Source: an uncultured Burkholderiales bacterium
Lineage (GTDB): Bacteria > Pseudomonadota > Gammaproteobacteria > Burkholderiales > Burkholderiaceae_C
DNA length: 64,000 nucleotides
Direction: 5' to 3'
Assembly: GCA_937871935.1 (NCBI GenBank)
Contig: CALMQI010000097.1
Coordinates: 1-64,000 of the forward strand
The notes below the pieces were generated by a model, which saw only the letters and a list, made by a program, of their open reading frames with translations, was not told the origin of the DNA and did not search any database. Positions 18,399 to 43,322 of the stretch are shown one piece after another (within the stretch, counting starts at the first letter, position 1; every line of letters starts with the position of its first letter). Position numbers and translations under genes: made by a program.

Positions 18399-18432
18399 CT
18401 AGAATCCGGCGATAGCCGGGGAGGCCGCGCCG

Positions 18433-21349: not shown

Positions 21350-23236
21350 ATGAGCGTAGCGAACTGGACGACGCGGTTGCTGGCCGATGGTGCGACGGGT
21401 GGCACCATGCGACGTCCGCTGCCCGTGGCGCGGCTCGATCCCACCTTCTCGGACGACAAGGCGCCAGCCGAGGCCGCAGCGCACCCGCTGATCGGCAGCC
21501 GCGTCGGCGCCTACCTGATCACCAAGCGGCTCGGCGCCGGCGGCGTCGGCGAGGTGTTCAAGGGCGTCGACGTGATGCTCAAGCGCGACGTGGCGATCAA
21601 GGTCCTGCGCGACGAACTGGCCGCCGACCCGTTGTTCCTCAAGCGCTTCAGCAACGAGGCCCAGCTGCAGGCCAAGCTGAGCCACCCCAACGTCGCGGCG
21701 CTGCATGCCTTCGTGCAGGAGGGCGACAAGCCGTTGATGGTGATGGAGTTCGTGGCCGGCGTCGCGCTGGACGAGTTCGTCCTGGCCGGCGGCCCGGTGC
21801 CGGTCGAACGGGCGCTGAACATCTTCCGCCGGGTGCTCGACGGCATCGAGCATGCGCACGGCTGCGGCATCGTGCACCGCGACATCAAGCCGGCCAACAT
21901 CATGCTGGCCGACAACGGCCAGGTGAAGGTGATGGACTTCGGCATCGCCCGGGCCATCGACAGCCAGGAGCACCTGACGCGCATCGGGCAGGTGGCCGGC
22001 ACCGCCAAGGCGATGTCGCCCGAGCAGATCCGCGGCGGCCAGGCCGATGCACGCTCCGACATCTACTCGCTCGGCATCGTGCTGTACACGCTGCTGGCCG
22101 GGCGCGCGCCCTTCGACGGCGACAACGACCACGCGCTGATGATGGCGCAGCTGCAGCACGCACCGCCGCCGCTGCGCGACGCGGTCGACGGCCTGTCGCC
22201 GGCCCTGGAGAGCGCGGTCATGCGCGCAATGGAAAAAGACCCGGCCGCGCGCTTCCAGACCGTGCGCGAGTTCGCCCGCGCCATCGACGCCTGCATGGCG
22301 GCGCCGAAGGTCCAGCCGTCCGATGCCACCGCGCACCCGTTCGGGACGCAGACGGACGCGCGAACCGTCATCAACCCCGTCCTGCAGGGTGTTCAGCGCC
22401 TGCCCGCCAGCGATGCCGGCGGGCCGCCGGCCACCGGGCCGAGCCGCGCGGCCCGTGTCTGGCCGCCCGTGAACAAGCGCGTGATCGCCGCAACCTTGAC
22501 CTTGCCCGCGCTCATCACCGGTGCGGTGCTGTCGTGGCCGCTGCTGTGGACGCCCGACGCGCCGCCGCCGGCCGCCGCCGCGCTGTCCTCAGCCGAGGTC
22601 GACTCGACGCCCGCCGTGCAACCGGCGCCAATCGCGCCGGCCCCGATCCAGACCCGCGCGACCGCCACGCCAGCGGACATGCCGCTGGCGGCCGACTCAC
22701 CGAGCCCGGTGCCTCCGACCCCACCCGCCACGGACCGTGCCACGCCGGCGCGCACCCTGGCGATCCTGCGCCTGGCTGCCGACGGCCGCGTCGATCCGGC
22801 GCGGGCCGCCGCCGGCCCGGCAACCGCGGCGACGAGTGACGACGACGTGCACCGCTTCGAGCCGGGCGAGCAGATCCGGCTGCTGGTCGCGCCGAGCAGC
22901 GACACCCATGTCTACTGCTATCTGCAGGACGAGGCCCGGCGCATCCTGCGCTTCTATCCCAATCGCTTCCACAAGAGCGCTCTGGTGAAGGCCGGCGCTG
23001 CACAGGAGATCCCGGGCAAGATGCGCTTCGAGCTGGTGGCCAACACCCTGGGCGTGCCGGAGACCGTCGCCTGCTTCGCCAGCGCGCGCGACGTGATGGC
23101 CGAGCTGCCACCGGCCGTGGTCGGCACCGACCTCACGCCGCTTCCGGTGGGCTCGCTGGACGAAGTCCGGGCGGCGTTCTCCGGCGTGGCCTCGCAGCCC
23201 CTGTCCGAAGGACGCTTCCGCATCGAGGTCCGTTGA
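21350..23236 (+). CDS. Membrane Ser/Thr protein kinase with DUF4384-like C-terminal domain
   Basis: The 628-residue protein carries a complete Hanks-type kinase domain (about 54-315): Gly-rich loop LGAGGVGEVF at 61-70, VAIK with Lys84, catalytic HRDIKPAN at 176-183, DFG at 196-198 and MSPEQ at 222-226. A Pro/Ala-rich linker with one transmembrane helix (about 377-401) leads to a periplasmic part whose end (about 500-590) resembles DUF4384: EQIRLLVAPSSDTHVYCYLQ and RILRFYPN. It is followed by four double-glycine peptides and a PP2C phosphatase on the same strand, and shares an upstream motif with the exporter operon. By analogy with the PpkA-PppA-Fha pathway of type VI secretion, it probably phosphorylates a component read by the FHA protein encoded at 37927-40431. 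That link is inference. Confidence 0.9.
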   Translation: MSVANWTTRLLADGATGGTMRRPLPVARLDPTFSDDKAPAEAAAHPLIGSRVGAYLITKRLGAGGVGEVFKGVDVMLKRDVAIKVLRDELAADPLFLKRFSNEAQLQAKLSHPNVAALHAFVQEGDKPLMVMEFVAGVALDEFVLAGGPVPVERALNIFRRVLDGIEHAHGCGIVHRDIKPANIMLADNGQVKVMDFGIARAIDSQEHLTRIGQVAGTAKAMSPEQIRGGQADARSDIYSLGIVLYTLLAGRAPFDGDNDHALMMAQLQHAPPPLRDAVDGLSPALESAVMRAMEKDPAARFQTVREFARAIDACMAAPKVQPSDATAHPFGTQTDARTVINPVLQGVQRLPASDAGGPPATGPSRAARVWPPVNKRVIAATLTLPALITGAVLSWPLLWTPDAPPPAAAALSSAEVDSTPAVQPAPIAPAPIQTRATATPADMPLAADSPSPVPPTPPATDRATPARTLAILRLAADGRVDPARAAAGPATAATSDDDVHRFEPGEQIRLLVAPSSDTHVYCYLQDEARRILRFYPNRFHKSALVKAGAAQEIPGKMRFELVANTLGVPETVACFASARDVMAELPPAVVGTDLTPLPVGSLDEVRAAFSGVASQPLSEGRFRIEVR

Positions 23237-23353: not shown

Positions 23354-23629
23354 ATGCAAGTCAAAGACCTGTCTGTCGAACTCGATGCCAAGGCCATGAC
23401 CGCTGTGCACGGTGGCGGCGACGTCAACCAGGCCATCGGCCAGTACAACGTGGCGGGCGGCGCGGCTCAAGTGGTCGCCCCCGGCCTGAGCTTCGGCAGC
23501 ACGAACCTGAACGTGAATGCGCCGACGCAGACCAACCTGGCGTCGAACACCGCGTTCAACAGCGAAGTGGACCTGACCAAGTTCGACCTGGACGTGACCA
23601 AGGTTGCCATCGGCGGCATCGTCGGCTGA
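23354..23629 (+). CDS. Double-glycine-leader small protein 1
   Basis: This 91-residue protein starts with a leader of the C39-peptidase type, KDLSVELDAKAMTAVHGG, with Gly20-Gly21 as the expected cleavage site. Charged residues sit early in the leader and hydrophobic ones at the -4, -7 and -12 region. The predicted mature part (70 residues) is rich in Asn, Gln, Val, Ala and Gly, contains NQAIGQYNVAGGAAQVV, and has no Cys, so it is not a lanthipeptide or disulfide bacteriocin precursor. GGAG lies about 9 nt before the ATG. It is probably a substrate of the peptidase-containing exporter at 32691-35747. What the secreted product does is unknown: signal, bacteriocin-like or structural (amyloid- or adhesin-like) roles are all open. 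Confidence 0.8.
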   Translation: MQVKDLSVELDAKAMTAVHGGGDVNQAIGQYNVAGGAAQVVAPGLSFGSTNLNVNAPTQTNLASNTAFNSEVDLTKFDLDVTKVAIGGIVG

Positions 23630-23947: not shown

Positions 23948-24223
23948 ATGCTGATCAAAGACCTGTCCATCGAACTCGACGCCAAGGCCATGACCGCTGT
24001 GCACGGCGGCGGCGACATCAACCAAGCCATCGGCCAGTACAACGTGGCGGGCGGCGCGGCTCAAGTGGTCGCCCCCGGCCTGAGCTTCGGCAGCACGAAC
24101 CTGAACGTCAACGCCCCCACGCAAACCAACGCCGCCTCGAACACGGCATTCAACAGCGATGTGGACGTCGACCTGTTCAAGCTCGACATCACCAAGGTTG
24201 CCATCGGCGGCATCGTCCTCTAA
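23948..24223 (+). CDS. Double-glycine-leader small protein 2
   Basis: This 91-residue paralogue of protein 1 has the leader KDLSIELDAKAMTAVHGG, Gly20-Gly21 cleavage site and no Cys. Its mature part is almost identical to that of protein 1 through residue 69, then differs in the acidic stretch (SDVDVDLFKLDI against SEVDLTKFDLDV) before the shared end TKVAIGGIV. CGGAGA precedes the ATG by about 8 nt. It has its own copy of the shared promoter-like motif and is followed by a strong hairpin. Retention of two near-identical copies suggests gene dosage matters or the products co-assemble. Confidence 0.8.
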   Translation: MLIKDLSIELDAKAMTAVHGGGDINQAIGQYNVAGGAAQVVAPGLSFGSTNLNVNAPTQTNAASNTAFNSDVDVDLFKLDITKVAIGGIVL

Positions 24224-24294: not shown

Positions 24295-24570
24295 ATGATG
24301 ATCAAGGACCTCGAAGTGGCGCGCGAAATGAGCCACGAAGAGCAGGCTGCCGTTCACGGCGGTACCGGCCCGTCGCTGACGCAACTGACCCAGGGCGTCA
24401 ACGTCAACGGCGATGCGACACTGATCGCTGAACAGTTCGGCATCGGCAACGTCGCCGTGCTGGTCGACGCACCCGTGCAGCTGAACCTCGGCGTGAACGT
24501 GGGCGCGAACATCGCCCCGGCCGTGAACGTGTCGCCCAAGATCGAAACCAACGGCGGCATCTTCTTCTGA
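24295..24570 (+). CDS. Double-glycine-leader small protein 3
   Basis: This protein also has exactly 91 residues. Its leader IKDLEVAREMSHEEQAAVHGG ends at Gly22-Gly23, aligning with proteins 1 and 2 in KDL and AVHGG. The predicted mature part (68 residues) is unrelated in detail but similar in style: Val/Asn/Ala-rich with alternating patterns such as VQLNLGVNVGANIAP, no Cys, and an end in GGIFF. CCAGGAG lies 7 nt before the tandem ATG ATG at 24295. It lacks its own shared motif and lies 71 bp after peptide 2 behind a hairpin. It is a probable substrate of the same exporter. Confidence 0.75.
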   Translation: MMIKDLEVAREMSHEEQAAVHGGTGPSLTQLTQGVNVNGDATLIAEQFGIGNVAVLVDAPVQLNLGVNVGANIAPAVNVSPKIETNGGIFF

Positions 24571-24698: not shown

Positions 24699-24983
24699 AT
24701 GATCGCCATTTCCGACCTGCCCGTCAGCCGCGCTCTGGACATCAGGGCCATGGGGTCCCTGCGCGGGGGCCTCGGCAGCGGCCTGTGGACGCTGGGTGCC
24801 TTCCAGCCCTACTCCGAGCCCGTGGTCAGCCAGATGCCCGGCGGCATCAACTTCTTCTCGATCACCAACAACACCACCTACATCGGCCAGGTCGTCAACA
24901 ACTACACGGTGTTCGACGTCGACAACTCCGGCGACGGCGCCAACGTCACCGCCCTGCTGATCGGCAACAGCCAGGGCGGCTGA
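24699..24983 (+). CDS. Double-glycine-leader small protein 4
   Basis: This 94-residue protein has the leader ISDLPVSRALDIRAMGSLRGG, with Gly23-Gly24 as cleavage site; DL, the LD-x-x-AM block and (V/L)xGG align with the other leaders. The mature part begins LGSGLWTLGAFQPYSEP, is rich in Asn, Thr, Gly and Val, contains NNTTYIGQVVNNYTVFDVDN, and ends NSQGG. It has no Cys. Its core is unrelated to proteins 1-3, so the cluster supplies at least three kinds of exported product. GGGAG lies about 9 nt before the ATG. The phosphatase gene follows after about 40 bp. Confidence 0.75.
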   Translation: MIAISDLPVSRALDIRAMGSLRGGLGSGLWTLGAFQPYSEPVVSQMPGGINFFSITNNTTYIGQVVNNYTVFDVDNSGDGANVTALLIGNSQGG

Positions 24984-25022
24984 GCCCGCTTTCGAACGCA
25001 ACGCGCGGTGAAGCAAGCGGCC

Positions 25023-25832
25023 ATGGGTTCCGGCGGAACACCCGGCGCGACAGCGCGCGAGACGAGCGAGGTCTGCTGGACCTCGGCGTCGCGCTCGCAT
25101 CCCGGCCGGGTGCGTGAAGTCAACGAGGATGCCTGCCTCGAACAGCCTCTGTGCGGCGTATGGGCCGTGGCCGACGGCATGGGCGGCCACTCGCTGGGCG
25201 AATTCGCCAGCCGCCTGGCCATCCGCAGCCTGATGGATCTGCCGCCCTCGGGCACGCTGGAACAGCGCGCGGCGCTGGTCGAAGCGCGCCTGCTGGAGGC
25301 TAACCGCCGGCTGCGCGCCGAAGCGGCGCGGCGCGACGTGCCGGTGATCGGCACCACGATCGCGGCCCTGCTGGTGGCGCAACGCCGCTTCGCCTGCGTG
25401 TGGGCCGGCGACAGCCGGGTCTACCTCTATCGCGAAGGACGGCTGTGGCAGCTGACGCGCGACCACAGCCAGCTCGAAGCGGTGCGCTCGGTACACGTGG
25501 CGTCGTCCGACGACACGCTCGACCGGCCCGCGGCCAATGTGATCACGCGCGCCCTCGGCGGCGGCGACAGCCTCGAACTCGACGCCGTGGGCGCCGATCT
25601 GGCCGACGGCGATGTCTTCCTGTTGTGCAGCGACGGCCTGACCAACGAGGTCGGCGACGTGGCCATCATGCAGGCGCTGATGCCGGGCAACTGCCGCCTG
25701 GCGGCCGACGCGCTGGTGGAGCTCGCGCTGGAGCGCGGCGGCCACGACAACATCACCGTCGTGGTGGCGCGTGCCGAAGACCTGTCGAGCCCGGACCGCA
25801 CCGTGCTGCATCCGGTGATGAAGGCGGACTGA
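25023..25832 (+). CDS. PP2C-family Ser/Thr protein phosphatase
   Basis: The 269-residue protein carries all PP2C metal-site motifs: VREVNEDA (Asp near residue 38), VADGMGGHSLGE, AGDSRVYLYR, LLCSDGLTNEV and GGHDNITVVV. No signal peptide or membrane helix is present, so it acts in the cytoplasm on the same side as the kinase domain of the 21350-23236 product. It closes the plus-strand cluster and is the natural antagonist of that kinase, as PppA is to PpkA in type VI secretion. A GTG at 25008 in the same frame is an alternative start; neither has a convincing ribosome site. A 79-bp GC-rich spacer separates it from the convergent histidine-kinase gene. Confidence 0.85.
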   Translation: MGSGGTPGATARETSEVCWTSASRSHPGRVREVNEDACLEQPLCGVWAVADGMGGHSLGEFASRLAIRSLMDLPPSGTLEQRAALVEARLLEANRRLRAEAARRDVPVIGTTIAALLVAQRRFACVWAGDSRVYLYREGRLWQLTRDHSQLEAVRSVHVASSDDTLDRPAANVITRALGGGDSLELDAVGADLADGDVFLLCSDGLTNEVGDVAIMQALMPGNCRLAADALVELALERGGHDNITVVVARAEDLSSPDRTVLHPVMKAD

Positions 25833-25911
25833 GGTCACTGCCTGTCGCGCGGCCTCCTGGCCGCTCGGGGGCCCCCGCCGCAGCAGTGTTTCGGGTGGCC
25901 CGCGAGGCGAG

Positions 25912-27677: not shown

Positions 27678-27849
27678 GGCGCTAGCGTCGCCGAGCGCGG
27701 TGCCCGGTTGCGGCGAGTTTTGTATCGCAGTGTTGCATGTGCCGGAATCGCAGGCTGGCGATGCAAATCGCCTAACTGCCGTCAACCTCGCCGGTGGCTT
27801 CTGCAGGTTCAATGCGTGTTGTCGCGACTCGGCCTCAGGCCCATCGAAC

Positions 27850-28605: not shown

Positions 28606-28612
28606 GACGCCC

Positions 28613-29317
28613 ATGAGTCTTGTCATTGCGGAAGGCCTGACCAAGACCTATCGCGCCGGCGACGTGGAGGTGCCCGCCATCAAGGGCGCCGATTTCGTCA
28701 TCGCGCCGGCGTCCTTCGTCGCCTTCGTCGGCCCATCGGGCAGCGGCAAGAGCACGCTGCTGAACATGATCGGCTGCCTCGACCATCCGACCGCCGGCAA
28801 GCTGAGCGTTCTGGGCACCGACATCGCCACGCTGGACCGCCGCGCCGCGGCCGACTTCCGCGGCAAGAACATCGGCTTCATCTTCCAGGACTTCAACCTG
28901 GTGCCGGTGCTCACCGCCTACGAGAACATCGAGTACCCGTTGATCATGGTGCAGGAGTGGCCCGCGGCGAAGCGCCGCGAGCAGGTGATGCGCCTGCTCA
29001 AGGCCGTGGGCATGGAGTCCCAGGCCGACAAGCGCCCCGACCAGATGTCGGGCGGGCAGAAGCAGCGTGTCGCGGTGGCGCGGGCCTTGGTGAGCAACGC
29101 CAAGATGGTGCTGGCCGACGAGCCCACCGCCAACCTCGACCACGATACGGCCCATCACGTGATCGACCTGATGAAGCAGATGCGTGACGAGTTCGGCACC
29201 ACTTTCATCTTCTCGACCCACGACCCGAAGATCATGGCCGAGGCCGAGACCACCTACACGCTGGAAGACGGCCACGTGCTGTCACGCGTCCATCACGCGC
29301 AGGCCGCCCATGCTTGA
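28613..29317 (+). CDS. LolD/MacB-type ABC transporter ATP-binding protein
   Basis: The 234-residue ATPase carries Walker A GPSGSGKST at about 41-49, the Q-loop region IFQDFNLVPVLTAYENIEYP, signature MSGGQKQRVAVARAL, Walker B MVLADEPTANLD and the H-loop STHDPKIM. The sequence around ENIEYPL fits the MacB/LolD/FtsE branch, which energises FtsX-like permeases. It starts 7 bp after the DUF4395 stop and overlaps the permease gene by 8 nt. The partner permease is a single protein, so a homodimer is expected. Confidence 0.9.
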   Translation: MSLVIAEGLTKTYRAGDVEVPAIKGADFVIAPASFVAFVGPSGSGKSTLLNMIGCLDHPTAGKLSVLGTDIATLDRRAAADFRGKNIGFIFQDFNLVPVLTAYENIEYPLIMVQEWPAAKRREQVMRLLKAVGMESQADKRPDQMSGGQKQRVAVARALVSNAKMVLADEPTANLDHDTAHHVIDLMKQMRDEFGTTFIFSTHDPKIMAEAETTYTLEDGHVLSRVHHAQAAHA

Positions 29318-30617: not shown

Positions 30618-30636
30618 TCACAGCCTGGAGAACAAG

Positions 30637-31371
30637 ATGCGCAAGCTGTTGTCCCTGATCGCGCTGGCCTGGCTGCTGCTGGCCGCGCCCGCCTTCGCCG
30701 TCGACGGCACGGCGCTGCTGCAGCAGCTCGACCGCAAGCTGGAACCCGAGAGCTACGAGATGGTGCGCAAGCTCGTCAACATCGAGCCCGACGGTTCGCG
30801 CAAGGAGTTCGTGCTGTATTCGGTGAAGAAGGGCAAGGACAAAATCGCCGCGCTGTTCCTCGACCCGGCCAGCGAACGCGATCGCGCCACGCTGCGGCTG
30901 GGCGAGAACATGTGGCTGTACATCCCCAACGTCGGCAAGCCGCTGCGCATCACCAGCCTGCAATCGGTGACGGGCGGCATCTTCAACAACGCCGACATCC
31001 TGGCGCTGGAGTTCTCGGTCGAGTACACGGTGGAGAAGGTGGTCGAAGAAGCCACCAGCTACACGCTCTCGCTGAAGGCGCGCACCGGTGACGTGGCCTA
31101 CGACCGCCTGACGATGAGGGTCGACAGGAAGACCACGCTGCCACTCTCGATCGAGGCCTACGCGGCCAGCGGGCTGCTGATCAAGACGCTGACCTACAAG
31201 GACATCAAGGACTTCGGCGGCGGCATCAGGCGCCCGGCGACGCTGGAGACCGAGAGCCCGCTGCACAAGGGCTACAAGTCGTTGATGCTTTACGGCTCGA
31301 TCAAGGCACGCAAGGTGGCCGACGAAGTCTTCACGCTGGAGTACCTGCCGCGGTTGAAGGAACTGCGGTGA
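30637..31371 (+). CDS. LolA-like outer-membrane lipoprotein-sorting protein
   Basis: The product (244 residues from the ATG at 30637) has a signal peptide ending APAFA-V and then the LolA-like fold pattern: FVLYSVKKGKDKIAALFLDP, GENMWLYIPNVGKPLRIT and LTMRVDRKTTLPLSIEAYA. Such proteins carry lipids or lipoproteins across the periplasm. I prefer 30637 because GGAG lies about 8 nt upstream and the signal peptide then starts MRKLL; an ATG at 30610 overlapping the permease gene is possible. Its place between an FtsX-like transporter and an outer-membrane protein makes an ABC transporter, carrier and outer-membrane receiver pathway likely. Confidence 0.8.
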   Translation: MRKLLSLIALAWLLLAAPAFAVDGTALLQQLDRKLEPESYEMVRKLVNIEPDGSRKEFVLYSVKKGKDKIAALFLDPASERDRATLRLGENMWLYIPNVGKPLRITSLQSVTGGIFNNADILALEFSVEYTVEKVVEEATSYTLSLKARTGDVAYDRLTMRVDRKTTLPLSIEAYAASGLLIKTLTYKDIKDFGGGIRRPATLETESPLHKGYKSLMLYGSIKARKVADEVFTLEYLPRLKELR

Positions 31372-32657
31372 GGCTCTGCGCGGCCGGCGCGCTGGCTGCC
31401 CTGACCGCGCTGCTGGCCTTGCCGGCGGCGGCCGCCGACGAGAGCTTCGACGCGTCGGCCTACGACAAGAAGGTGTTCGAGTGGACGGGCCTCGTCGAGG
31501 TGCGGCCCGAGCACCAGTGGTTGCGGCCCGGCTCTGCCGGCTATGTGCTGCAGTACCCGGCGCAGATGCGGCACAGCGCCGACCGGCTGGGCGCAGCGGC
31601 CGAGTTGTCGGCCGTGCTGCGCCACCAGTCGCTCAGCTTCGCTTACACCGGACATGCGAGCGCGATCGACGAACCCCGTGGCTCCGACAGCGACTACCGC
31701 CACTACGAGGCCTACGGTGCCTGGCAGATCGACGCGGGCATTCACGTGCTGGTCGGCAAGCGGGCGCTGCGCTGGGGCAAGGGTTACGCCTGGGCTCCGG
31801 TGGCCTTCCTGGAGCGTGCCAGGGATCCGACCGACCCGGAACTTGCACGCGAAGGCTTCGTGATGGCCACCGCTGCCTGGGTGCGCAGCTTCGACGGGCC
31901 GCTGCAGACGTTGTCGATGACCGCGGCCGCCGTGCCCACCACGTCGGGCCTGAATGAGGACTATGGCGGTGGCACCGGCAGCGCCGGGCACACCAATGCG
32001 GCCCTCAAGCTGTACGGTCTGGTCCTCGACACCGACGTCGACCTGATTTGGGCCGCCGCTGGCAGCCTGGGCCCGCGTTTGGGCATCGACTTCTCGCGCA
32101 ACGTCGGCAGCAATCTGGAGATCCACGGCGAGTGGGCACGTGTGCGCGATGCCGCTCGCGTGACGCTGACGTCCGCCAACGCGCTGCAGACGACGAGCCG
32201 GACCCACACCGCTGCGTTGATCGGCGCACGCTATCTGAACGAGCGCGACACCACGGTCATCGTCGAGTTCTACCGCAACGGCGGTGGCTACACGACGGAC
32301 GAGCTCGGCGCGTTCTACGACCTGGTGCACGCGGCAGCGACCGATCCGACACTCATGCCAGCGGCCGGCCGCGCCGCGGCCCAGGGCTACAACCGGCCGA
32401 ACGCCGCACAGCGCTACGCGTACCTGCGCGTGAGCCAGAAGGAGCCGTTCGACATCCTGGATTTCACGCCCTCGCTGAGCCTGATCGCCAACACCGGCGA
32501 CCACAGCTGGTCGCTGATTCCCGAGGTGCTGTACACGGGCGTCAAGAACATCGAATTGCGGGCGCGGCTGGCGCTGAACCGAGGCGACGCCGGCACCGAA
32601 TACGGCGAGCGCGCCGTGCGCTCGCGCCTGGAGCTGCGTGCACGCTGGTTCTTCTGA
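31368..32657 (+). CDS. Predicted outer-membrane beta-barrel protein
   Basis: A GTG start at 31368 overlaps the LolA-like stop by 4 nt. The 429-residue protein has a signal peptide (MRLCAAGALAALTALLALPA to AAA-D) and a mature part with alternating strands ending ELRARWFF; a terminal aromatic residue is the usual signal for outer-membrane barrel insertion. Segments such as HVLVGKRALRWGKGYAW and LTSANALQTTSRTHTAALIG look like barrel strands. I do not recognise a specific family. Operon context suggests it receives or anchors the cargo moved by the preceding ABC transporter and LolA-like carrier. Confidence 0.7.
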   Translation: MRLCAAGALAALTALLALPAAAADESFDASAYDKKVFEWTGLVEVRPEHQWLRPGSAGYVLQYPAQMRHSADRLGAAAELSAVLRHQSLSFAYTGHASAIDEPRGSDSDYRHYEAYGAWQIDAGIHVLVGKRALRWGKGYAWAPVAFLERARDPTDPELAREGFVMATAAWVRSFDGPLQTLSMTAAAVPTTSGLNEDYGGGTGSAGHTNAALKLYGLVLDTDVDLIWAAAGSLGPRLGIDFSRNVGSNLEIHGEWARVRDAARVTLTSANALQTTSRTHTAALIGARYLNERDTTVIVEFYRNGGGYTTDELGAFYDLVHAAATDPTLMPAAGRAAAQGYNRPNAAQRYAYLRVSQKEPFDILDFTPSLSLIANTGDHSWSLIPEVLYTGVKNIELRARLALNRGDAGTEYGERAVRSRLELRARWFF

Positions 32658-32690: not shown

Positions 32691-35600
32691 TCAGGCCGCG
32701 CTCAGCTGCTTGTGCACCAGCTCGTAGTACATGCCGCGGCGCTGCACCAGCTCGTCGTGCTTGCCCTGCTCCACGACCTTGCCTTCGTACAGCACGAGGA
32801 TCTTGTCGGCCCGCATGATGGTGCTCAGGCGGTGCGCGATGATCACCGCGGTGCGCCCCTGCAGGATGTCGTTCATGCTGGCGATGATGTTGCTCTCCGA
32901 CTGGGTGTCCAGCGCCGAGGTCGCCTCGTCGAACACCAGCAGCCGCGGGTCGTGGTACAGCGCCCGCGCGATGCACAGGCGCTGGATCTGTCCACCGGAC
33001 AGCCCGGTGCCGCGCTCGCCCACCGTCTGCTCGTAGCCACGCGGCATCTTGCTGATGAAGCCGTGCGCGTCGGCGCGGCGGGCCACCTCTTCGATGCGGC
33101 GCCGGTCCGGCGTGTCGTCGCCGCAGGCGATGTTCTCGGCGATCGTGCCCGAGAACAGCAGGTTGGTCTGCATCACGTAGCCCACCTGTGCCCGGTAGTA
33201 CTCCTTGTCGATCACGTTGATGTCGTAGCCGTCGACCATCAGCTTGCCCTCGGTGGGCGTATAGAAGCCCACCAGCAGCTTGGCCAGCGTGGTCTTGCCC
33301 GAGCCGCTGCGCCCGACGATGGCCACCAGCTCGCCGGGCTTGATCTCGAGGTTGATGTTCTCCAGCACGTAGGGCGTGTCGGCACCGCCATATCGGAAGT
33401 ACACGCCGTCGAACTTGACCTCGCCGCGCAGGTCCGGCAGCGCGACGCGGGTGGCCAGGTCCTCGGGCTTCTGCTCGGGCTCGAGGTCGAGCACATCACC
33501 CAGGCGCTCCATCGCGACCGCGGCGTCGTTGAGCCGGCTCCACAAGCCCACCAGGCCCATCAGCGGCGCGAGCACGCTGCCCATCAGGGCATTGAAGGCC
33601 ATCAGCTGGCCGATGGTCAGCTCGCGCGAGAGCACCAGGCTGGCGCCGGCCCACAGAATGGCGATCGTGGTGGCGGCATTGAGCAGTTGCCCGGCCAGGC
33701 CGACCCAGTTGTTGAACGACTGCGCGCGGTACTGCACCTCGAGCGCCTTGGCGTACTTCATCTCCCACTTCAGCCGCACCGGCCGCTCGATGCCCATGCC
33801 CTTGACGGTCTCGGCGCCGCCCAGAGTTTCCATCAAGTACGACTTGGCGTCGGTCGACGCGCTGAACATCTCGCGCGCGTAGGCCTTGATCTTCGGCGTC
33901 ACCAGCACCGTCAGCACCATGATCGGGATCACGAAGGCGATCAGCAGCAACGTGAGCTTGACGTTGTAGAGGAACATCACCGAGAAGTAGATGAACACCA
34001 TCAACAGGTTCAGCACCGTGGTGACCGTCGACTCGGTGAGAAACGCGCGGATCGTCTGGTTCTCCTGGAAGCGCGCGAAGATATCGCCCGTCTGGCGCTT
34101 GGCGAAGAACGAATACGGCAGCGACAACGTGTGCCTGAAGAACTGCGACATCATCGTGAAGTCGAGCTTGCGCACCATGAAGTTCGACAACGCGGCGCGG
34201 ATCGTCGCCATCACCTGCGTGAACACGCTGGAGATCACCAGCCCGGCAATCAGCAGGTGCAGCAGGTTCACGTTCTGATGCACGATCACGCCGTCCAGGA
34301 TGTTCTGGATGATCATCGGCGGCACGATGCCGAGCACCTGGATCACGAAGGTCGCCAGCATCAGGTGCAGCAGGATCTTGCGGTGCGGAATCAGGTAGCG
34401 CGCGAAGCGCACCCAGGGCGAACGTGAGGCGGTTTCCTCGGCCAGGTTGCTGCGCGGCGTGAACGTCAGGCAGGTGCCGCTCCAGCCGCGCTCGAACTCC
34501 TCCAGGCTCAGCTTCTTGAAGCCGGTGGCCGGGTCGGCCAGCCACACGTGCCGCGCCGACACGCCGTACACCACGACGTAGTGGTAACCCTCCCAGTGGA
34601 CGATGAATGGCAGGTCGAAGCCGCGCAGCGCGTCGAAGGTGCACTGCACGCCGCGCGTGGTGAAGCCGAGCGACTCGCCGGTGCGCGCCAGGCTGTCGAG
34701 CGTGGCGCCCGACGTCGTCACGTTGGCCAGCTCGCGCAGCTTGCCCAGCGTCATGTTGATGCCGTAGTGCTTGCAGATCATGGCCAGGCAGGCCGCACCG
34801 CAGTCCATCTGCTCGGCCTGCTGGATCCAGGCAAAACGCTTGAGCACACGCTCGCCGAGCTCGGCCTTGGACTTCAGGTCGAGCAGCGACGCCGGCTTGC
34901 GTCGCTCGGCCAGGCGCTTCTGCCGCTGCAGTTCACGATCGAGCACCCGCACGCGCTCGGCCAGCACCTCGCGCAGCTTCGGGTTGCGCTCCAGGATGAA
35001 CGTCACCGTCTTTTCCGGGATCACCAGCAGCGCGGTCTCGGTGTGGGCGACCACCGCGGCATCGTGCTCCTGGCGCATCAGGCAGGCCCGCTCGCCGAAG
35101 GTGTCGCCATCGCGCAGCGTGGCCAGCGGGTAGTCGTTACCCTCCTCCTGCCGCACGATGCGCACTTCGCCGTGGCGCACCACGTACAGGCGCCGGTCGT
35201 CGCGCGAGCCCTGCTTGACGATCTCCTTGCCGGCGTCGACCTGCTTGACGCCGACGCTGCGGATGATCTCCTCGAGCTCGTCCTTGTCGACCTTGCCGCG
35301 CAGGTCGAACAGCTGGCTGATCAAGCCACCCGCCGAACCGATGGCGACCCGGCTCGCGACGAACGCACGCGCCGCCGGGTTGGCAGCGATGATCGGCGCC
35401 ACCACCGCGCGTGGGATGATCAGCAGCTCGGTCTTCGCCGACGCGCGCGCCGACACCTCGTGGCGGTGCTCGCGCAGCACCACCATCTCGCCGAACACGT
35501 CGCCGGCCTTGCGCACGCCCTGGCTGACCTCCTTGCCGGCCTCCTCGGCAAAGATGCGCACGGTGCCCGACTTGATCACGCAAAGACCGTCGGCCACGTC

Positions 35601-35747
35601 ACCCGCCTTGCAGGCGGTGTCGCCGAACGCCAGCCAGCGCGACTGCGCCGCCTCGGCGAGGCGCTCGATGTCCTTGCGCGTCAGCGCCGACAGCAGGTCG
35701 ACAGTGGCCAGGAAATCGGCGCGTGACTTCAGCTCTTGCGGGTCCAT
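32691..35747 (-). CDS. Peptidase-containing ABC exporter with two cyclic-nucleotide-binding domains
   Basis: The 1018-residue protein has an unusual domain order: cNMP-binding-like domain 1 (about 18-125), cNMP-binding-like domain 2 (about 150-265), C39 peptidase (about 305-430) with Cys316 in QMDCGAAC, His389 in GYHYVVVYG and Asp405 in LADPATG, a six-helix ABC membrane domain (about 455-740), and an ATPase with Walker A GRSGSGKT (about 811-818), LSGGQ, LLVFDEATSALD and HRLSTI. C39 domains cut leaders after Gly-Gly during export, which fits the four leader peptides at 23354-24983. Cyanobacterial HetC-type exporters have a similar cNMP plus C39 plan. It is the last gene of the five-gene minus-strand operon, 22 bp after the PPIase gene. 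The cNMP domains suggest gating by a nucleotide, or are degenerate. Confidence 0.9.
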   Translation of the reverse strand: MDPQELKSRADFLATVDLLSALTRKDIERLAEAAQSRWLAFGDTACKAGDVADGLCVIKSGTVRIFAEEAGKEVSQGVRKAGDVFGEMVVLREHRHEVSARASAKTELLIIPRAVVAPIIAANPAARAFVASRVAIGSAGGLISQLFDLRGKVDKDELEEIIRSVGVKQVDAGKEIVKQGSRDDRRLYVVRHGEVRIVRQEEGNDYPLATLRDGDTFGERACLMRQEHDAAVVAHTETALLVIPEKTVTFILERNPKLREVLAERVRVLDRELQRQKRLAERRKPASLLDLKSKAELGERVLKRFAWIQQAEQMDCGAACLAMICKHYGINMTLGKLRELANVTTSGATLDSLARTGESLGFTTRGVQCTFDALRGFDLPFIVHWEGYHYVVVYGVSARHVWLADPATGFKKLSLEEFERGWSGTCLTFTPRSNLAEETASRSPWVRFARYLIPHRKILLHLMLATFVIQVLGIVPPMIIQNILDGVIVHQNVNLLHLLIAGLVISSVFTQVMATIRAALSNFMVRKLDFTMMSQFFRHTLSLPYSFFAKRQTGDIFARFQENQTIRAFLTESTVTTVLNLLMVFIYFSVMFLYNVKLTLLLIAFVIPIMVLTVLVTPKIKAYAREMFSASTDAKSYLMETLGGAETVKGMGIERPVRLKWEMKYAKALEVQYRAQSFNNWVGLAGQLLNAATTIAILWAGASLVLSRELTIGQLMAFNALMGSVLAPLMGLVGLWSRLNDAAVAMERLGDVLDLEPEQKPEDLATRVALPDLRGEVKFDGVYFRYGGADTPYVLENINLEIKPGELVAIVGRSGSGKTTLAKLLVGFYTPTEGKLMVDGYDINVIDKEYYRAQVGYVMQTNLLFSGTIAENIACGDDTPDRRRIEEVARRADAHGFISKMPRGYEQTVGERGTGLSGGQIQRLCIARALYHDPRLLVFDEATSALDTQSESNIIASMNDILQGRTAVIIAHRLSTIMRADKILVLYEGKVVEQGKHDELVQRRGMYYELVHKQLSAA

Positions 35748-35769: not shown

Positions 35770-36522
35770 TCAGCAGGTCTCGATCAGGTGTTCCTGGGCC
35801 CGGGCGCGCAGCCACCCTTCGCGCAGCACACGCTGGACTTCGGCGCGCGTGGCGTCGTCGAGCTGTGCCGGTTGCCGCGCGTCGACGCGAAAGATCTCGA
35901 ACACCGAGCGATCCGGCGAGACGAACGGCCCGAGCACCTCGCCGACGGCAGCATTGAACACCTTGGCCTCGACATCGCCGCGCAGCGCGCCACGCAGCAC
36001 CTTGCCGATGCGCCCGCCGTTGTCGCGCGTGGCGCCGATCGAATGCTCGCGTGCCATCTCCTCGAAACTGTCGGGGTCGTCGCTCAGCACCGAGATCATC
36101 TCCTTGGCCTTGCCTTCGGAGTCGAGCACCATGTGGCTGACCTCGATGCCGTCGAACTTGGGCGAATTGAGCTTGAAGTACGACTCCACCGCCTGATCGC
36201 TGCACACCTGCTGCAGCATCCTCTCCTGGTACAGGCTGTCGGAGATGAAGGCCTCGAACTCGTCCAGGCTGATGTGCAACGCGTCCAGGTACTTGTTGGT
36301 GTCGGCGGCACGGTGCAGGCCGCGCGCGCGGCGGAACTGGTCGGCTCGTTCCTGGACGTCCTGCTCGGACACGGAAATGCCCACCTTGCGGGCGGCCTGC
36401 ACGGTGAGCCGGTCGCGCACGATCTGCTCGATCAACGCGTCGTACTGGCCACTGAGCCTCAGCGTGCGGATGAAGTCGGTGACGGTGATCGCCTGACCGT
36501 CGATCTTGACGAGAGGGTCCAT
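35770..36522 (-). CDS. Parvulin-type peptidyl-prolyl isomerase
   Basis: The 250-residue protein follows the PpiC/SurA layout: an N-terminal helical domain (about 1-110, DFIRTLRLSGQYDALIEQIV), then a parvulin domain (about 120-215) with EVSHMVLDSEGKAKEMISVL, FEEMAREHSIGATRDNGG and VGEVLGPF, and a helical tail. There is no signal peptide, so it acts in the cytoplasm or is exported by an unknown route. Parvulins encoded beside HlyD and C39-exporter genes recur in bacteriocin-type export loci. It lies 22 bp before the exporter gene and 34 bp after the HlyD gene. It may keep the leader peptides export-competent, although peptides 1-3 contain few prolines. Confidence 0.85.
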   Translation of the reverse strand: MDPLVKIDGQAITVTDFIRTLRLSGQYDALIEQIVRDRLTVQAARKVGISVSEQDVQERADQFRRARGLHRAADTNKYLDALHISLDEFEAFISDSLYQERMLQQVCSDQAVESYFKLNSPKFDGIEVSHMVLDSEGKAKEMISVLSDDPDSFEEMAREHSIGATRDNGGRIGKVLRGALRGDVEAKVFNAAVGEVLGPFVSPDRSVFEIFRVDARQPAQLDDATRAEVQRVLREGWLRARAQEHLIETC

Positions 36523-36556: not shown

Positions 36557-37930
36557 TCAACCGCCGATTTCGCGGAACGGATCGAGCGCCAGGTCGATCA
36601 GGCGCCGCTCGCGCACGACCACCTCGGCGCTGGCCGTCATGCCGTAGCGCAGCGGCACCTTGGTGTCGGCCACCTTGTAGTGGTCGCGCGCCAGCGCCAC
36701 GCGCCCTTCGTACACCGGCAGCTTGGTCTGCGCCGATGGCTTGGTGGCCGGCGAGATGTACTCCAGCGTGCCCTGGATGACGCCGTAGCGCTGATACGGG
36801 AACGCCGCGAACTTCAGCTTGGCCGTCTGGCCCTCGCGCAGGAAGGCGCGGTCGTGTTCGGCGATCTCGATCCTGACCACCGCCTTGGCGCCGGCCGGCG
36901 CGATGCCGCCGAGCGGCATGTTGGCCTGGATCTTGTCGCCGGGCTGGGTCGAGGTGACATCGGTGACGATGCCCGACACCGGCGCCACGATCAGCAGGAA
37001 GTTGTCCTTGTCGATGTTCTCGAAGCGGATGCGCGCCGCCGCCTCGGCGGCCACACGCGCCGCGCTGAGCTGCAGGCGCAGCTTTTCTTCGGCGGTGGTC
37101 AGTTCGTTGGTCGCCGCCTCGTACTCCAGGCGCAGTCGCTTCAGCTCCTCGCCGCTCGATTCGATGCGCGCCTGCGCCTGCGTCAGGTCCTGGCTCTGCA
37201 GCGCGCTCAACTCGCCGACCCGCGACTGGGCCACGCGCAGCGCGTTCTCGGCGGCTTGCAGCGCGCTGCGTTTGCTGTCGACTTGCTGCTGCGACACACC
37301 GCCACCGCCGGTGGCCGAGAACACGCGCTCGAAGCGCTCCAACTCGGCGCGGGCGGCATCCCGCGCGCGGCGTGCGTCCTCGACGTTGGCACGCGCGCCG
37401 GACTCCTGCGCGCGTTGCGCCTCGACCAGCCGGGAGGTGCCGATCGACGTGCGCTTGGCATGCTGCTGTTCCTCGAGCTCCATCGCCTGGCGCAGGGTGG
37501 CCGCCTTGCGTTCGAGCAGCGCCTTCTTCTCGGGGAACTGGCGCCACTCGCGCTCGGCGTTCTCGAGTCGGAGCTGCGCCTGCAGCGAGTTGGCCGCGGC
37601 CTCGACGGCACCGCGCGCATTCAGCCGCGCCAGCACGTCGCCCTTGGACACCGGCTGGCCTTCGGCGATGTACAGGTTGGCCAGCTCGCCGTCGACCGGC
37701 GCGTAGAAGCGCCTGAGTTCGGAGTCCGGCATCAGCGCGCCTTGCGTGGTGACGATCACATCGGCGCGGCCGATGATCGACCAGCCCAGCCCCGCGACCA
37801 CCAGCGCGATCATCGTGTAGACCACGGCGTGCAGCACGCGCCAGGGCTCCGCGGTCAGGATCGCGATGCCTTCGGTGCTGTGGTCGCCGAGCGCCTCGGT
37901 CAGCGGCTTGAGTCGGTAGATGGTCGTCAT
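36557..37930 (-). CDS. HlyD-family periplasmic adaptor of the peptide exporter
   Basis: The 457-residue adaptor has a cytoplasmic N-terminus, one membrane helix (about 33-53, LHAVVYTMIALVVAGLGWSI), a biotinyl-lipoyl-like half-motif (FYAPVDGELANLYIAEGQPV), a long coiled-coil hairpin (about 105-300) and the C-terminal HlyD block LLIVAPVSGIVTDVTSTQPG. This matches type I secretion adaptors that bridge the ABC exporter and an outer-membrane factor. Its ATG overlaps the FHA gene's stop by 4 nt (ATGA). Together with the flanking genes it forms a complete trans-envelope conduit. Confidence 0.9.
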   Translation of the reverse strand: MTTIYRLKPLTEALGDHSTEGIAILTAEPWRVLHAVVYTMIALVVAGLGWSIIGRADVIVTTQGALMPDSELRRFYAPVDGELANLYIAEGQPVSKGDVLARLNARGAVEAAANSLQAQLRLENAEREWRQFPEKKALLERKAATLRQAMELEEQQHAKRTSIGTSRLVEAQRAQESGARANVEDARRARDAARAELERFERVFSATGGGGVSQQQVDSKRSALQAAENALRVAQSRVGELSALQSQDLTQAQARIESSGEELKRLRLEYEAATNELTTAEEKLRLQLSAARVAAEAAARIRFENIDKDNFLLIVAPVSGIVTDVTSTQPGDKIQANMPLGGIAPAGAKAVVRIEIAEHDRAFLREGQTAKLKFAAFPYQRYGVIQGTLEYISPATKPSAQTKLPVYEGRVALARDHYKVADTKVPLRYGMTASAEVVVRERRLIDLALDPFREIGG

Positions 37931-40431
37931 TCGTTGCGCTCTCCCAGCAGCGCCAGCTTGTCCTTCACGAGCTGCGGATCGAGCACGTTGCGCAGGTCCT
38001 GCAGCGCCGTGCGCTGGGCCTGGGCTTCGGCCTGGATCTCGTCGCGGACCACGGCCGACGGGTCGGCCGCCGCCGCACCGAGCAGCGCGTGGATGCGGGC
38101 CGCCCGCTGCGCATTCTGGCGCGCGTCGGACAACAACCGGGCCTGGGCGCGGAAGCCGTTGGAGATCGTGGTCTCGATGCGCTGCCCCGCGGTGATGGCG
38201 CCATTGCCGCGGTAGTCCTGCCACAGCGCGCGTGCACGGCTCATCAGGCCGTCCGCGCGCGCAGCCACCTTGTCCCTGTTCTGCTCGAGCTCGGTCTGGG
38301 TCGCGCGCAGGAAGAAGGCATCCTCGTCGGCGTCGAGCGATTCGCGAAAGGCGATCAGCGTGTCGGCGTAGCCGCTGCCCGTGCGCGCCTGCTGCAGCGA
38401 CGCGTGCTGCGCGAGCACCGCCTGCTTGCGCTGCAGCTCGGTGGCGGCCGCCTCGGCCCACGGTCCGGTCACCAGCGCCTGCAGTCCGCTCAGCGCCTGC
38501 GCGGTGTGGCCGTCCTGCCAGGCCTTGACCGTGGCTTCGTAGGCGCGCATCACGTCGGCCGGCGGCAGCTGCCCGCTGGCCGTCATGGCCTGGATGCTGT
38601 CGCGAAACGGCGGCGTCACGATGTGCGCCTTGCGCAACAGGGCCAGCAGGCGCCCCGGCTTGCGCGCGCCGGCCTCGCGCTTGATCTCGATATAACGGGC
38701 CAGGTCCTGGCGCACACTGTCCAGGCCGCCCAGGCCGGGGTACTTTTCCGCGGTCTCCTTCAGCAGCGGTTGCAGGTCTTCGGCGCGATCGCGCGCCACC
38801 TCGGCCACCAGGCTGGCCTTCAGCCGGTCGATGGCCGCCAGGTACACGGTGGCATCGCTCTGCAGCTTGCGCAGGTGCGTCAGGGCCGCGGCATAGGGCG
38901 CGTTGAACTCGGGCACGAACGACGCGATGCGCCCGAGCGAGCGCTGGTGCTCGCGAGTCTCGCGGTTCCAGCGCTCGATCACCGCGGCGATGCGGTCCTC
39001 GTCGGCGTAGATGCGGATCGGTGCATCCGGCCCGCGGCTGCTCACCAGCTGCTCGAGCTGGCCCAGCCACTCGAGTTCGCTGACCAGCGGGCCCAGCTCG
39101 GGGTTGCGCCCGGCCAGGTCGCCCAGGTCGGCGAGCACGCCACGCACGCCGTCGAAGTCGCGCGCCGCCACCTTGGCCAGCCAGACGGGCACGTGGGCCT
39201 TCAGGGCCGCTTCGGTGGCGAGCGACTTGAGTTCGCTGTCGTCCGGGCTGCGCTGCAGGGCCTGGTCGGCCAAACGCGCGGCCTGCGCGTACTCGCCGCG
39301 TTCGAGCAGGTCCTTCAACTCGCGCTCCGAGCGCACCCACCACGACAGCCCGAGCGCCGCCACGGTCAGCCCGGCGATCAGTGCGGCCACCATCCACATC
39401 GTCCGTCGCACGCGTTCGCGCTGGCCACCGGCGGCCACCGCAGCCAGCTCGGCAACCATCGTCGCAACGCGGCCACGGCTGCGTGCCTTGCGGGCCGGTT
39501 CCGGTGCCGCCGCGGCAGCCGCCGCCGGCGCCGCGGCGTCGGGCAGTGCCTTGTCGGGCGCCTCGGCGTCGGCGCAGAAGATTTCCAGGAACGAGTCGGG
39601 CGCCGCGACGAAGGTGGTCTTGCCCGCGTTCACGCTCGGCGCCGCAGCCGGCGCGGCAGTGCGGGTCCCGCCGGCTTCGAACGAGGCCGCGCCCTTCTGG
39701 ATGCCGACCCGGTAGACGAAGTGATCACCTGCGAACGCCAGCAGCATGCCGTCCTGCAGCGGCACCGCGTGCTCCTGCAGGCGTTCGCCATCGAGGAAGG
39801 TGCCGTTGGCACTGGCCAGGTCTTCGATGTGCGCGTGGCCGCCCTTGAGGAAGATGTGCGCCTGGCGCCGTGACAGGAAGTCGAGCTGCTTGGGATGGAC
39901 GCCGCGATAGCGCGCGAACGCTGCATCGGCCTTGCTGATCAGGAACGGAAATCGTGCGATGACCAGCGGCTCCAGGCCCGAACCCTCGGCCGCGGGCGTC
40001 AAGGTCAGCGTGTAGCCTTGCGGGCGCTCTGCCGCCGCGCGCGAGGTGATCTGCACACGGTACGACAGCACGCCGCCGAAGCAGACCTCGTCGCCGTCGG
40101 CCAGGCGCGCCGGCTTGTGCTGCACGTTGGCGCGATTGACCGTGGTGCCGTTGCGGCTCTCCAGGTCGGCCAGATAGACGGCGCCGCCTTCGATGAAGAT
40201 GCGCGCGTGTCGGCGCGACAGCATCACCTGGATGTCGGGGGCATAGGAGGCGAAAGGCTGTTCGTTGCGGCCGACCGGGAACACGCTGTCGGTGATGCGG
40301 ATCTCGCCCAGCTCGGGCTGCGACAGCGGCTTGAGCACGACCTCGAGGTCGTGGCCCGGCGTCACCGGCACGGCGGCGGCCTTGGTTTCGTCGTGCACCA
40401 GCTGCGCGCGCCGACTGTCAACGGCCTGCAT
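37927..40431 (-). CDS. Double-FHA membrane protein with large periplasmic helical domain
   Basis: The 834-residue protein has two forkhead-associated (FHA) domains, which bind phosphothreonine. The first has VGRNEQ, LSRRHARIF and LESRNGTTVN (about 50-120). The second has LSRRQAHIFLKGGHAHIEDL and SANGTFLDGERL (about 185-235). An Ala-rich linker and one membrane helix (about 345-367, MWMVAALIAGLTVAALGLSW) follow, then roughly 460 periplasmic residues of alpha-helical, partly coiled-coil or TPR-like sequence (about 375-834) with no recognised family. I use the ATG at 40431 (MQAVDS), which overlaps the tolC-like stop by 14 nt; an ATG at 40458 is possible. It is the probable reader of phosphorylation by the kinase at 21350-23236 and could couple that signal to the exporter across the membrane. 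Confidence 0.85.
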   Translation of the reverse strand: MQAVDSRRAQLVHDETKAAAVPVTPGHDLEVVLKPLSQPELGEIRITDSVFPVGRNEQPFASYAPDIQVMLSRRHARIFIEGGAVYLADLESRNGTTVNRANVQHKPARLADGDEVCFGGVLSYRVQITSRAAAERPQGYTLTLTPAAEGSGLEPLVIARFPFLISKADAAFARYRGVHPKQLDFLSRRQAHIFLKGGHAHIEDLASANGTFLDGERLQEHAVPLQDGMLLAFAGDHFVYRVGIQKGAASFEAGGTRTAAPAAAPSVNAGKTTFVAAPDSFLEIFCADAEAPDKALPDAAAPAAAAAAAPEPARKARSRGRVATMVAELAAVAAGGQRERVRRTMWMVAALIAGLTVAALGLSWWVRSERELKDLLERGEYAQAARLADQALQRSPDDSELKSLATEAALKAHVPVWLAKVAARDFDGVRGVLADLGDLAGRNPELGPLVSELEWLGQLEQLVSSRGPDAPIRIYADEDRIAAVIERWNRETREHQRSLGRIASFVPEFNAPYAAALTHLRKLQSDATVYLAAIDRLKASLVAEVARDRAEDLQPLLKETAEKYPGLGGLDSVRQDLARYIEIKREAGARKPGRLLALLRKAHIVTPPFRDSIQAMTASGQLPPADVMRAYEATVKAWQDGHTAQALSGLQALVTGPWAEAAATELQRKQAVLAQHASLQQARTGSGYADTLIAFRESLDADEDAFFLRATQTELEQNRDKVAARADGLMSRARALWQDYRGNGAITAGQRIETTISNGFRAQARLLSDARQNAQRAARIHALLGAAAADPSAVVRDEIQAEAQAQRTALQDLRNVLDPQLVKDKLALLGERNE

Positions 40432-41815
40432 TCGCGACTTCGACGGGCGCCCAGCCACCGCCGAGCGCCTTGTAGAGGGTGACCGTATCGGACAGCACCT
40501 GCTGGTGGCTCGCCAGCAGTTCCAGCTGCGCCGCCAGCAGCGACCGTTCGGTCTCGAACACCTCGAGCTGCGAAATCAGGCCGGCGGCAAGCTGCACCTG
40601 CGTCTGCGCTGCCACCCGTTCGAGCTGTTCGACCTGCTGGCGCAGCTCGACGTTCTGCTGGCGATGGGCATCCAGGTTGACCAGCGCGTTCTCGACTTCC
40701 TCGTACGCGGCGATCACCGTGCGCTTGTAGTCGTTCTCGAACACCTTCACCTGGGCTTCGGTGGTCACGACGCGCGCCTTGATGCCCGGGTTGAAGATCG
40801 GCAGGTTGATGCTCGGCAGCAGCCCGAAGGTGAACGATTTCAGCAGATCCCCCAGCGAGAAGGCCGCGGTGCCGCCACGGCCGGTGAGGCCGATCGACGG
40901 CAGCTGCGCCAGCTTGGCCTGACCGACCAGGTTGTGCGACTCGAGCACCCGGTATTCGGCGGCCACCACGTCGGGCCGCCGCGCCAGCAGATCCAGCGGC
41001 AGGCCGGCCGGCACCACCGGCGCCTGCACGTTGCCCTGCAGGCGGCCGGGCGGGACCTTCAGCTCGCCGGCCGGCACGCCCACCAGCGTGGCGAGCGCGT
41101 GCTCGGACACCAAACGCGCGCGCCGCAGCTCCAGCTCTTCCTTGGTCAGCCGGTTGATCTCGGCCCGCTGGCGCAGCACCTGGGTATCGGGCGCCAGGCC
41201 GTTGCGGTGCATCGTCTCGTAGATGGCAAGGATCTGCCGGTTCTTGACCAGCGCGCGCTGCTGCCGCTCGAGCTGTTCGTCGAGCTGCAGGATCTGGAAG
41301 TAGGTGGTCGACACGCCGGCCACGAGAGTCAGGTAGCCGGCGCGCCAGTCGGCCTCGCTGGCCCGGAACTCGGCCGTCTGCGCCTGCACACCCTTGGCCG
41401 TCTGGCCCCAGACGTCCAGATCCCAGCTCACCTGGGTGCCCAGACTGAACTGCTTGGAGAACCGCTGCCGGGTGGTCTTGTCGAAGTTGCCGCCGGCGCC
41501 GATGTCCACCGATGGCAGCGCCCCGGCACGTACCTCGGCGATCTGGGCGCCGGCCACGTCGATGCGCGAGGCCAGCACCTTGAGGTCGAAGTTACCGGCG
41601 ACGGCGCGCGTCACCAGCGCATCGAGCTGGGGATCGCGGAACTCCTGCCACCAGCTCGGCGAGATCGTGCCGACGGCCGACACCGCGGGATCCGCGGGCC
41701 GCGACCAGGCTGTCTTGGCCGGCGAGTCGGGCCGCTTGTAGTCGGTGGTCTGCACGTTGGCACAGCCGCCCAGCAGGGCGGCAAGCAGACCGGTCAGGAC
41801 AATCGGGTTCTTCAT
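40418..41815 (-). CDS. NodT/CusC-type outer-membrane factor lipoprotein (TolC superfamily)
   Basis: The 465-residue protein has a lipoprotein signal with lipobox LLGGC (Cys18) and two OEP repeats: PSWWQEFRDPQLDALVTRAV and NFDLKVLASRIDVAGAQIAE in the first, VGQAKLAQLPSIGLTGRGG and TVIAAYEEVENALVNLDAHR in the second. This is the NodT/CusC lipoprotein branch more often paired with RND pumps. Here it heads an operon with FHA, HlyD, PPIase and ABC exporter genes, so it likely serves as their outer-membrane channel. The ATG at 41815 follows GGGGG by about 6 nt. A copy of the shared TTGAAC-N16-GCAACC motif lies 111 nt upstream. Confidence 0.9.
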   Translation of the reverse strand: MKNPIVLTGLLAALLGGCANVQTTDYKRPDSPAKTAWSRPADPAVSAVGTISPSWWQEFRDPQLDALVTRAVAGNFDLKVLASRIDVAGAQIAEVRAGALPSVDIGAGGNFDKTTRQRFSKQFSLGTQVSWDLDVWGQTAKGVQAQTAEFRASEADWRAGYLTLVAGVSTTYFQILQLDEQLERQQRALVKNRQILAIYETMHRNGLAPDTQVLRQRAEINRLTKEELELRRARLVSEHALATLVGVPAGELKVPPGRLQGNVQAPVVPAGLPLDLLARRPDVVAAEYRVLESHNLVGQAKLAQLPSIGLTGRGGTAAFSLGDLLKSFTFGLLPSINLPIFNPGIKARVVTTEAQVKVFENDYKRTVIAAYEEVENALVNLDAHRQQNVELRQQVEQLERVAAQTQVQLAAGLISQLEVFETERSLLAAQLELLASHQQVLSDTVTLYKALGGGWAPVEVANAGR

Positions 41816-43307: not shown

Positions 43308-43322
43308 TCGCGCCCGGACCTC

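Follow-up and report, generated by a model that had tools for sequence, protein, structure and literature searches.

Cyclic-nucleotide-binding (CNB) domains are usually read as sensors of cAMP or cGMP. What, then, do they sense when two of them precede a peptidase-containing secretion pump? We considered this question for a locus in a 64,000-nucleotide stretch of DNA from an uncultured Burkholderiales bacterium (contig CALMQI010000097.1, positions 1 to 64,000; hereafter the window). The initial annotation had described an exporter of this kind, had regarded its CNB tandem as noteworthy in a betaproteobacterium, and had suggested combined control by a nucleotide and by phosphorylation. Judged by the gene set that can be read from the sequence, the locus is a type I secretion system organised around a long-type peptidase exporter (Table 1).

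Table 1. Coordinates of the exporter, its domains and associated genes in the window.
Feature	Position	Strand	Remarks
PknB-like Ser/Thr protein kinase with C-terminal DUF4384	21350..23236	+	
GG-leader precursor 1	23354..23629	+	leader MQVKDLSVELDAKAMTAVHGG; predicted 70-aa mature part
GG-leader precursor 2	23948..24223	+	near-copy of precursor 1
GG-leader precursor 3	24295..24570	+	
GG-leader precursor 4	24699..24983	+	member of the phosphatase-linked precursor family
PP2C-type Ser/Thr phosphatase	25008..25832	+	
C39 peptidase ABC exporter with two N-terminal CNB-fold domains	32691..35747	-	1018 aa; ORF, Pfam, alignment
ABC ATPase domain	32694..33365	-	residues 795-1018; Pfam; D940/E941 and following DEATSALD invariant
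ABC transmembrane domain	33564..34364	-	residues 462-728; Pfam
Peptidase C39 domain	34449..34835	-	residues 305-433; Cys316, His389, Asp405
CNB-fold domain 2	34953..35261	-	residues about 163-265; Gly-Glu kept; phosphate-Arg position = His228 (Gln in 73/75)
CNB-fold domain 1	35343..35642	-	residues about 36-135; phosphate-Arg position = His96, invariant in relatives
PpiC-type peptidyl-prolyl isomerase	35770..36522	-	250 aa; no evident signal peptide; nearest NCBIfam TIGR04500, below cut-off
HlyD-type periplasmic adaptor	36557..37930	-	
Membrane protein with two N-terminal FHA domains, TM helix and large C-terminal part	37927..40458	-	
NodT/TolC-type outer-membrane factor (OMF)	40418..41815	-	

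The exporter and its relatives

The coordinates, strand and length (1018 aa) of the exporter ORF are exact. The protein matches the Pfam family cNMP_binding twice (3.9e-33, above cut-off), followed by Peptidase_C39, ABC_membrane and ABC_tran, which confirms that the ORF encodes two cNMP_binding domains, an intact C39 peptidase, a transmembrane domain (TMD) and a nucleotide-binding domain (NBD). The catalytic triad had also been placed correctly, and it is invariant in 75/75 aligned sequences. The closest NCBIfam model to the exporter core is TIGR01846 (HlyB subfamily), with a score below its cut-off. HlyB/CvaB/PCAT1-type exporters share the C39(-like), TMD and NBD core but have no N-terminal CNB extension, and the peptidase-like domain of HlyB is inactive. 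With its C39 triad, its fused TMD and ATPase and the double-glycine (GG) leader precursors encoded nearby, the protein would be classed by sequence as a PCAT; its N-terminal CNB extension of about 300 residues, and the PpiC-type isomerase and HlyD protein in its cluster, are those of long-type, HetC-like exporters.

A search of one genome per species returned 170 places that encode a relative. The best 80 of these 170 are 92% to 73% identical across nearly the full length and come mostly from Paraburkholderia, Caballeronia, Cupriavidus, Massilia, Noviherbaspirillum and Aromatoleum. Species with an orthologue in this search include Cupriavidus necator and Paraburkholderia xenovorans LB400. We aligned the window protein with 74 Burkholderiales orthologues from the best 80 (n = 75), and both N-terminal domains and the peptidase triad are kept in all 74. 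Occurrence is patchy: when 300 genomes of the order were sampled, 3 of them, counting the window's own, matched the N-terminal part (E <= 1e-20). Tandem cNMP domains were also detected by Pfam in the alphaproteobacterium Skermanella rosea, where the peptidase Cys is replaced, in three further genomes of the window's class, and in the cyanobacterium Leptolyngbya boryana, where the peptidase is degraded. We therefore dropped the view that the tandem is unique to the window, and its presence in a betaproteobacterium is not noteworthy in itself.

HetC of Nostoc PCC 7120 and HetC-like proteins have a similar layout, in which some 300 residues of CNB region precede an active C39 peptidase and an ABC exporter; the HetC-like protein of Nostoc HK-01 shares 43% identity with the window exporter over the C39-ABC part. 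HetC differs in being described with one CNB domain, no HlyD neighbour and no FHA/kinase/PP2C set. HetC-like proteins had been credited with one CNB domain, and those of Nostoc HK-01 and Tolypothrix do contain one clear Pfam domain; alignment, however, reveals a degraded second of similar length, whereas the window exporter has two full domains. The long-type C39 transporters of cyanobacterial bacteriocin gene-cluster groups I, II and VI have in common with the window locus a CAP_ED (CNB) extension, SurA/PpiC, HlyD and nearby GG precursors, but were described with a single CAP_ED domain (PMC3140520). To this cyanobacterial type the Burkholderiales locus adds an OMF, the FHA protein, PP2C, a sigma-54 activator and its own precursor family. 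Since the tandem is widespread, the "long type" with CAP_ED extension, SurA and HlyD was already described in 2011 (PMC3140520), and HetC binds ppGpp, the architecture is a variation on known exporters.

Ligand pockets of the CNB domains

The FGE segment reported for each domain is present in both domains of the window protein (DVFGEMVV, FGE at 85-87, and DTFGERAC, FGE at 217-219). In domain 2 it is invariant (75/75). In domain 1 it is a peculiarity of the window lineage, the segment among the 75 aligned sequences usually being Phe-Ala-Asp (Ala at position 86 in 67/75, Asp at position 87 in 62/75).

The pocket register was taken from a HMMER alignment of the exporter with a cGMP-dependent kinase (PKG), in which a PKG Gln-Arg pair aligns with Arg95-His96 in domain 1 and the Pro-Arg pair with Glu227-His228 in domain 2. 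Position 96 is His in 75/75 and is followed by an invariant Glu97; position 228 is Gln in 73/75 and His in 2/75. The phosphate-binding Arg that the initial annotation had proposed to check is thereby replaced in both CNB domains of all 75 sequences, the CNB folds themselves being complete in the model. It is also missing in the more distant long-type exporters that we aligned. Read by eye, the Skermanella-type group has Trp at this position, and the cyanobacterial proteins, HetC-like ones among them, have Phe, Val or Tyr.

AlphaFold modelled two complete CNB-type folds within residues 1-440 (mean pLDDT 80). The closest PDB structures to this model, in local matches with an overall domain arrangement that differs from PKA/PKG, are tandem-CNB regulatory regions of these kinases, including the cAMP-independent trypanosome PKA-R. 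The model thus suggests a tandem CNB fold in common with PKA regulatory subunits (6FLO, 6HYQ), although the window tandem is fused to an exporter and has no kinase catalytic partner. Trypanosome PKA-R has lost the same Arg, a loss that accompanies purine nucleoside binding with the use of an extra, ribose-binding Glu (PMC10959531). A pocket of that kind is half a fit here: the Arg is lost, but the compensating Glu has no counterpart in the exporter (Ala at 221, mostly Ala at 89).

Two Pfam matches above cut-off, modelled folds that resemble cAMP-bound PKA-R structures, and the Gly-Glu kept in the domain-2 cassette (75/75) would suit true sensors of cAMP, cGMP or c-di-GMP that switch the exporter. 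We consider this very unlikely, given the replaced phosphate-contact Arg in both domains of every orthologue, the unconserved Gly-Glu of domain 1, and the finding that cAMP gave the N-terminal part of HetC no stabilisation (PMC10986499). As all aligned orthologues lack the phosphate Arg, we no longer take cyclic-nucleotide control as the leading view; since the CNB domains do not have the residue that grips a cyclic nucleotide, another signal probably controls the exporter.

The HetC N-terminal CNB region is required in vivo and binds ppGpp (Kd 59 uM), although this binding is weak and its in vivo relevance unproven (PMC10986499). In the window family, further cassette residues are invariant (Arg92, His96, Glu97, Ser99 and Arg101 in domain 1; Arg225 in domain 2), and for this reason the pocket looks re-purposed rather than simply decayed. 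The motif H96-E97-x-S99-x-R101 could alternatively be of a surface type that makes contacts, the canonical pocket is degraded, and the layout persists in Nostoc/Tolypothrix-type proteins where the second domain decays. These points would agree with CNB folds that no longer bind a ligand and instead serve structural or docking purposes, such as dimerisation or contacts made to the peptidase, PpiC, the FHA protein or the leader peptide. However, the invariance of the non-canonical residues suggests a selected site, and guanine nucleotides are bound by HetC (PMC10986499). Trypanosome PKA-R also gained nucleoside binding after the same Arg loss (PMC10959531), albeit with the Glu that is missing here. 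A docking module without ligand binding therefore seems to us rather unlikely. That the CNB cap answers to a non-cyclic ligand or a contact is a reading we hold with moderate confidence, and that the ligand is a guanine nucleotide with low to moderate confidence.

Gene content of the locus

From downstream to upstream, the minus-strand run consists of the exporter, PpiC, HlyD, the two-FHA membrane protein and the OMF, while the kinase, the four GG-leader precursors and PP2C lie on the plus strand about 7 kb from the exporter. What is new is a locus that combines four GG precursors, PpiC, HlyD, an OMF, a two-FHA protein, PP2C and, in this genome, a PknB-like kinase.

Conservation was counted over the 68 relatives' loci that have 9 kb or more of sequence on each side. 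PpiC was found in 68 of these, PP2C in 64, GG precursors in 60, and the FHA protein, HlyD and OMF in 58 each; a sigma-54 activator gene immediately follows the exporter (L007:13057-14382 and equivalents) in 67. A good match to the kinase is limited to the window and its nearest relative (locus L006). In the FHA protein, the phosphothreonine-site residues of the first domain (G63-R64, S81-R82-R83-H84 and N103-G104) are invariant in 59/59 sequences, and the second domain has Ser-Lys instead of Gly-Arg. Residue 199, in this second domain, is Gln in the window and His in 58/59. The suggested dual control is partly supported: its phosphorylation part gains support from the two-FHA protein, PP2C and PknB-like kinase at the locus, and its cyclic-nucleotide part is disfavoured by the Arg replacement in 75/75.

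Several other genes adjoin the system. The block between phosphatase and exporter (25835-32657) encodes a response regulator/histidine kinase, a DUF4395 protein, a MacB/FtsX-type ABC transporter, a LolA-like protein, and a 429-aa protein with no match in Pfam or NCBIfam; it is missing in L006, which has the phosphatase gene immediately after that of the exporter. An HPr-rel-A set (18132-20572, plus strand) adjoins the kinase/precursor block. Its members are a PqqD-family chaperone, for which TIGR04353 scores below cut-off, HprK-related kinase A, for which TIGR04352 scores above it, and a nucleotidyltransferase of the NTP_transf_5 family. Just upstream of the OMF gene is a gene for a pseudopilin-like protein that starts with FTLIEIVVVLAVVAILATLALPS (42992-43528, plus strand) and has no match in Pfam or NCBIfam. 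In relatives, a caspase-like (Peptidase_C14) gene is found beside the operon in 60/68 loci (for example L054:3-1454, minus strand), a DUF4399 gene in 60/68 and an LRAT-domain gene in 48/68 (example coordinates of DUF4399/LRAT-domain neighbours are L022:2106-2528 and L022:15950-16483).

Candidate substrates

A leader-pattern search identified 169 precursors, spread over 69 of the 81 loci; the reversed sequence gave 0. The leader consensus is nearly exceptionless (D-19, L-18, L-12, D-11, M-7, V/I-4, G-2, G-1), and the -4/-7/-12 spacing before GG is that known for C39 substrates. With a stricter pattern, no GG precursors were found in cyanobacterial or alphaproteobacterial loci, where flanks are short. 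One extra precursor with the same leader (MATFSITDLARNEKLDHKAMAIVHGG) is encoded elsewhere in the window's genome (contig C238:13288-13386, minus strand; locus L147), far from any exporter seen. No prior description of GG leaders in Burkholderiales was found in the literature outside subscription journals.

The predicted mature products are mostly 57-71 residues long, contain 13.9% Asn, are rich in Val, Ser, Ala, Gly, Thr and Gln, and have low charge; Cys is absent from 144 of 157. No Pfam or NCBIfam family matches the precursors above cut-off. AlphaFold modelled the leader helix alone (pLDDT 46) and gave the mature part no confident fold, and a profile search of the PDB with the mature product found nothing credible. 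We infer with high confidence from these sequences that the C39 domain cleaves the precursors after GG and that the pump exports the products.

In Synechococcus elongatus, the four GG-leader proteins EbfG1-4 depend on the C39 protein PteB, and three of them, EbfG1-3, form amyloid within the matrix of the biofilm (PMC4997328, PMC9981879). The window system likewise pairs a C39 exporter with several small GG-leader proteins, likened to EbfG by leader, size and style; the matrix or amyloid role is demonstrated for EbfG, whereas for the window products we propose it from their composition and this analogy. By the same analogy, the products may be surface or matrix proteins, a reading to which we give moderate confidence.

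GG leaders with C39 exporters are also the classic pairing of microcins. Precursor 3 weakly resembles the NCBIfam "CTB family bacteriocin" (E 0.065), and comparable clusters in cyanobacteria have been given the name of bacteriocin clusters (PMC3140520), so that class II microcin-like bacteriocins or signal peptides, instead of matrix proteins, are a possible though doubtful identity of the products. They occur as several paralogues per genome with near-identical copies, no immunity gene is evident among the conserved neighbours, and their Asn-rich, low-charge, Cys-poor composition is nearer in style to amyloid-forming EbfG (PMC9981879).

Sigma-54 control

We searched within 250 bp of the precursors for the sigma-54-type promoter pattern TGG[CT][AG]N6TTGC. 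It was found at 36 of 52 phosphatase-linked precursors versus 0 of 117 other precursors (controls 0 and 1), counts that are not independent because the loci are related. A stricter form occurs in 31 of 169 precursor upstream regions, 57-92 bp ahead of the start, and in 0 of 2000 random stretches. The window has no sigma-54-type site at its phosphatase-linked precursor and no activator at the locus; L006 likewise has neither an activator nor a site of this type next to its precursors. A search for the activator in the rest of the window's genome found generic relatives alone (38-59% over parts). The window lineage thus appears to have lost sigma-54 control of the phosphatase-linked precursor.

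Proposed mechanism and significance

We regard it as somewhat probable that the long-type peptidase exporter secretes Asn-rich small proteins under gating by phosphosignalling and by a non-cyclic ligand or contact. The C39 domain would cut the leaders after GG, PpiC would help to hold the products export-competent, and the pump would secrete the Asn/Ser/Val/Gln-rich, nearly Cys-free products of 60-75 residues, which are probably surface or matrix proteins like EbfG. The two CNB domains could form a PKA-R-like cytosolic cap that gates the peptidase or pump, with a non-cyclic ligand (the leading guess being a guanine nucleotide such as ppGpp) or a protein contact as its input, and not cAMP or cGMP. 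Ser/Thr phosphorylation, read by the FHA protein, would be a second level. The kinase, PP2C and the FHA protein would thereby act on the exporter, and we hold phospho-gating through the FHA protein with moderate confidence. A third level in most relatives, lost in the window lineage, would be the control of the phosphatase-linked precursor by sigma-54. Counting against this reading are the distance of about 7 kb between the window precursors and the exporter, across an inserted block, and the restriction of a good kinase match to the window and L006. More tentatively, the locus could represent a widely conserved, undescribed Burkholderiales system for secreting a family of amyloid-like matrix proteins rich in Asn. 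Their secretion would be gated jointly by a re-purposed tandem CNB cap that has a new ligand, by a relay of kinase, phosphatase and FHA protein, and by sigma-54 control.

Here we describe a conserved set of pump-attached CNB domains, all of which have another residue in place of the phosphate-binding Arg. Because this replacement occurs on a secretion pump, the question of the ligand, which HetC and its binding of ppGpp had raised, becomes testable in Burkholderiales that are easy to grow. The locus further points to probable substrates of the pump and connects these with a phosphosignalling set and with a promoter of the sigma-54 type. A previously unassigned type I secretion system thereby becomes experimentally tractable.
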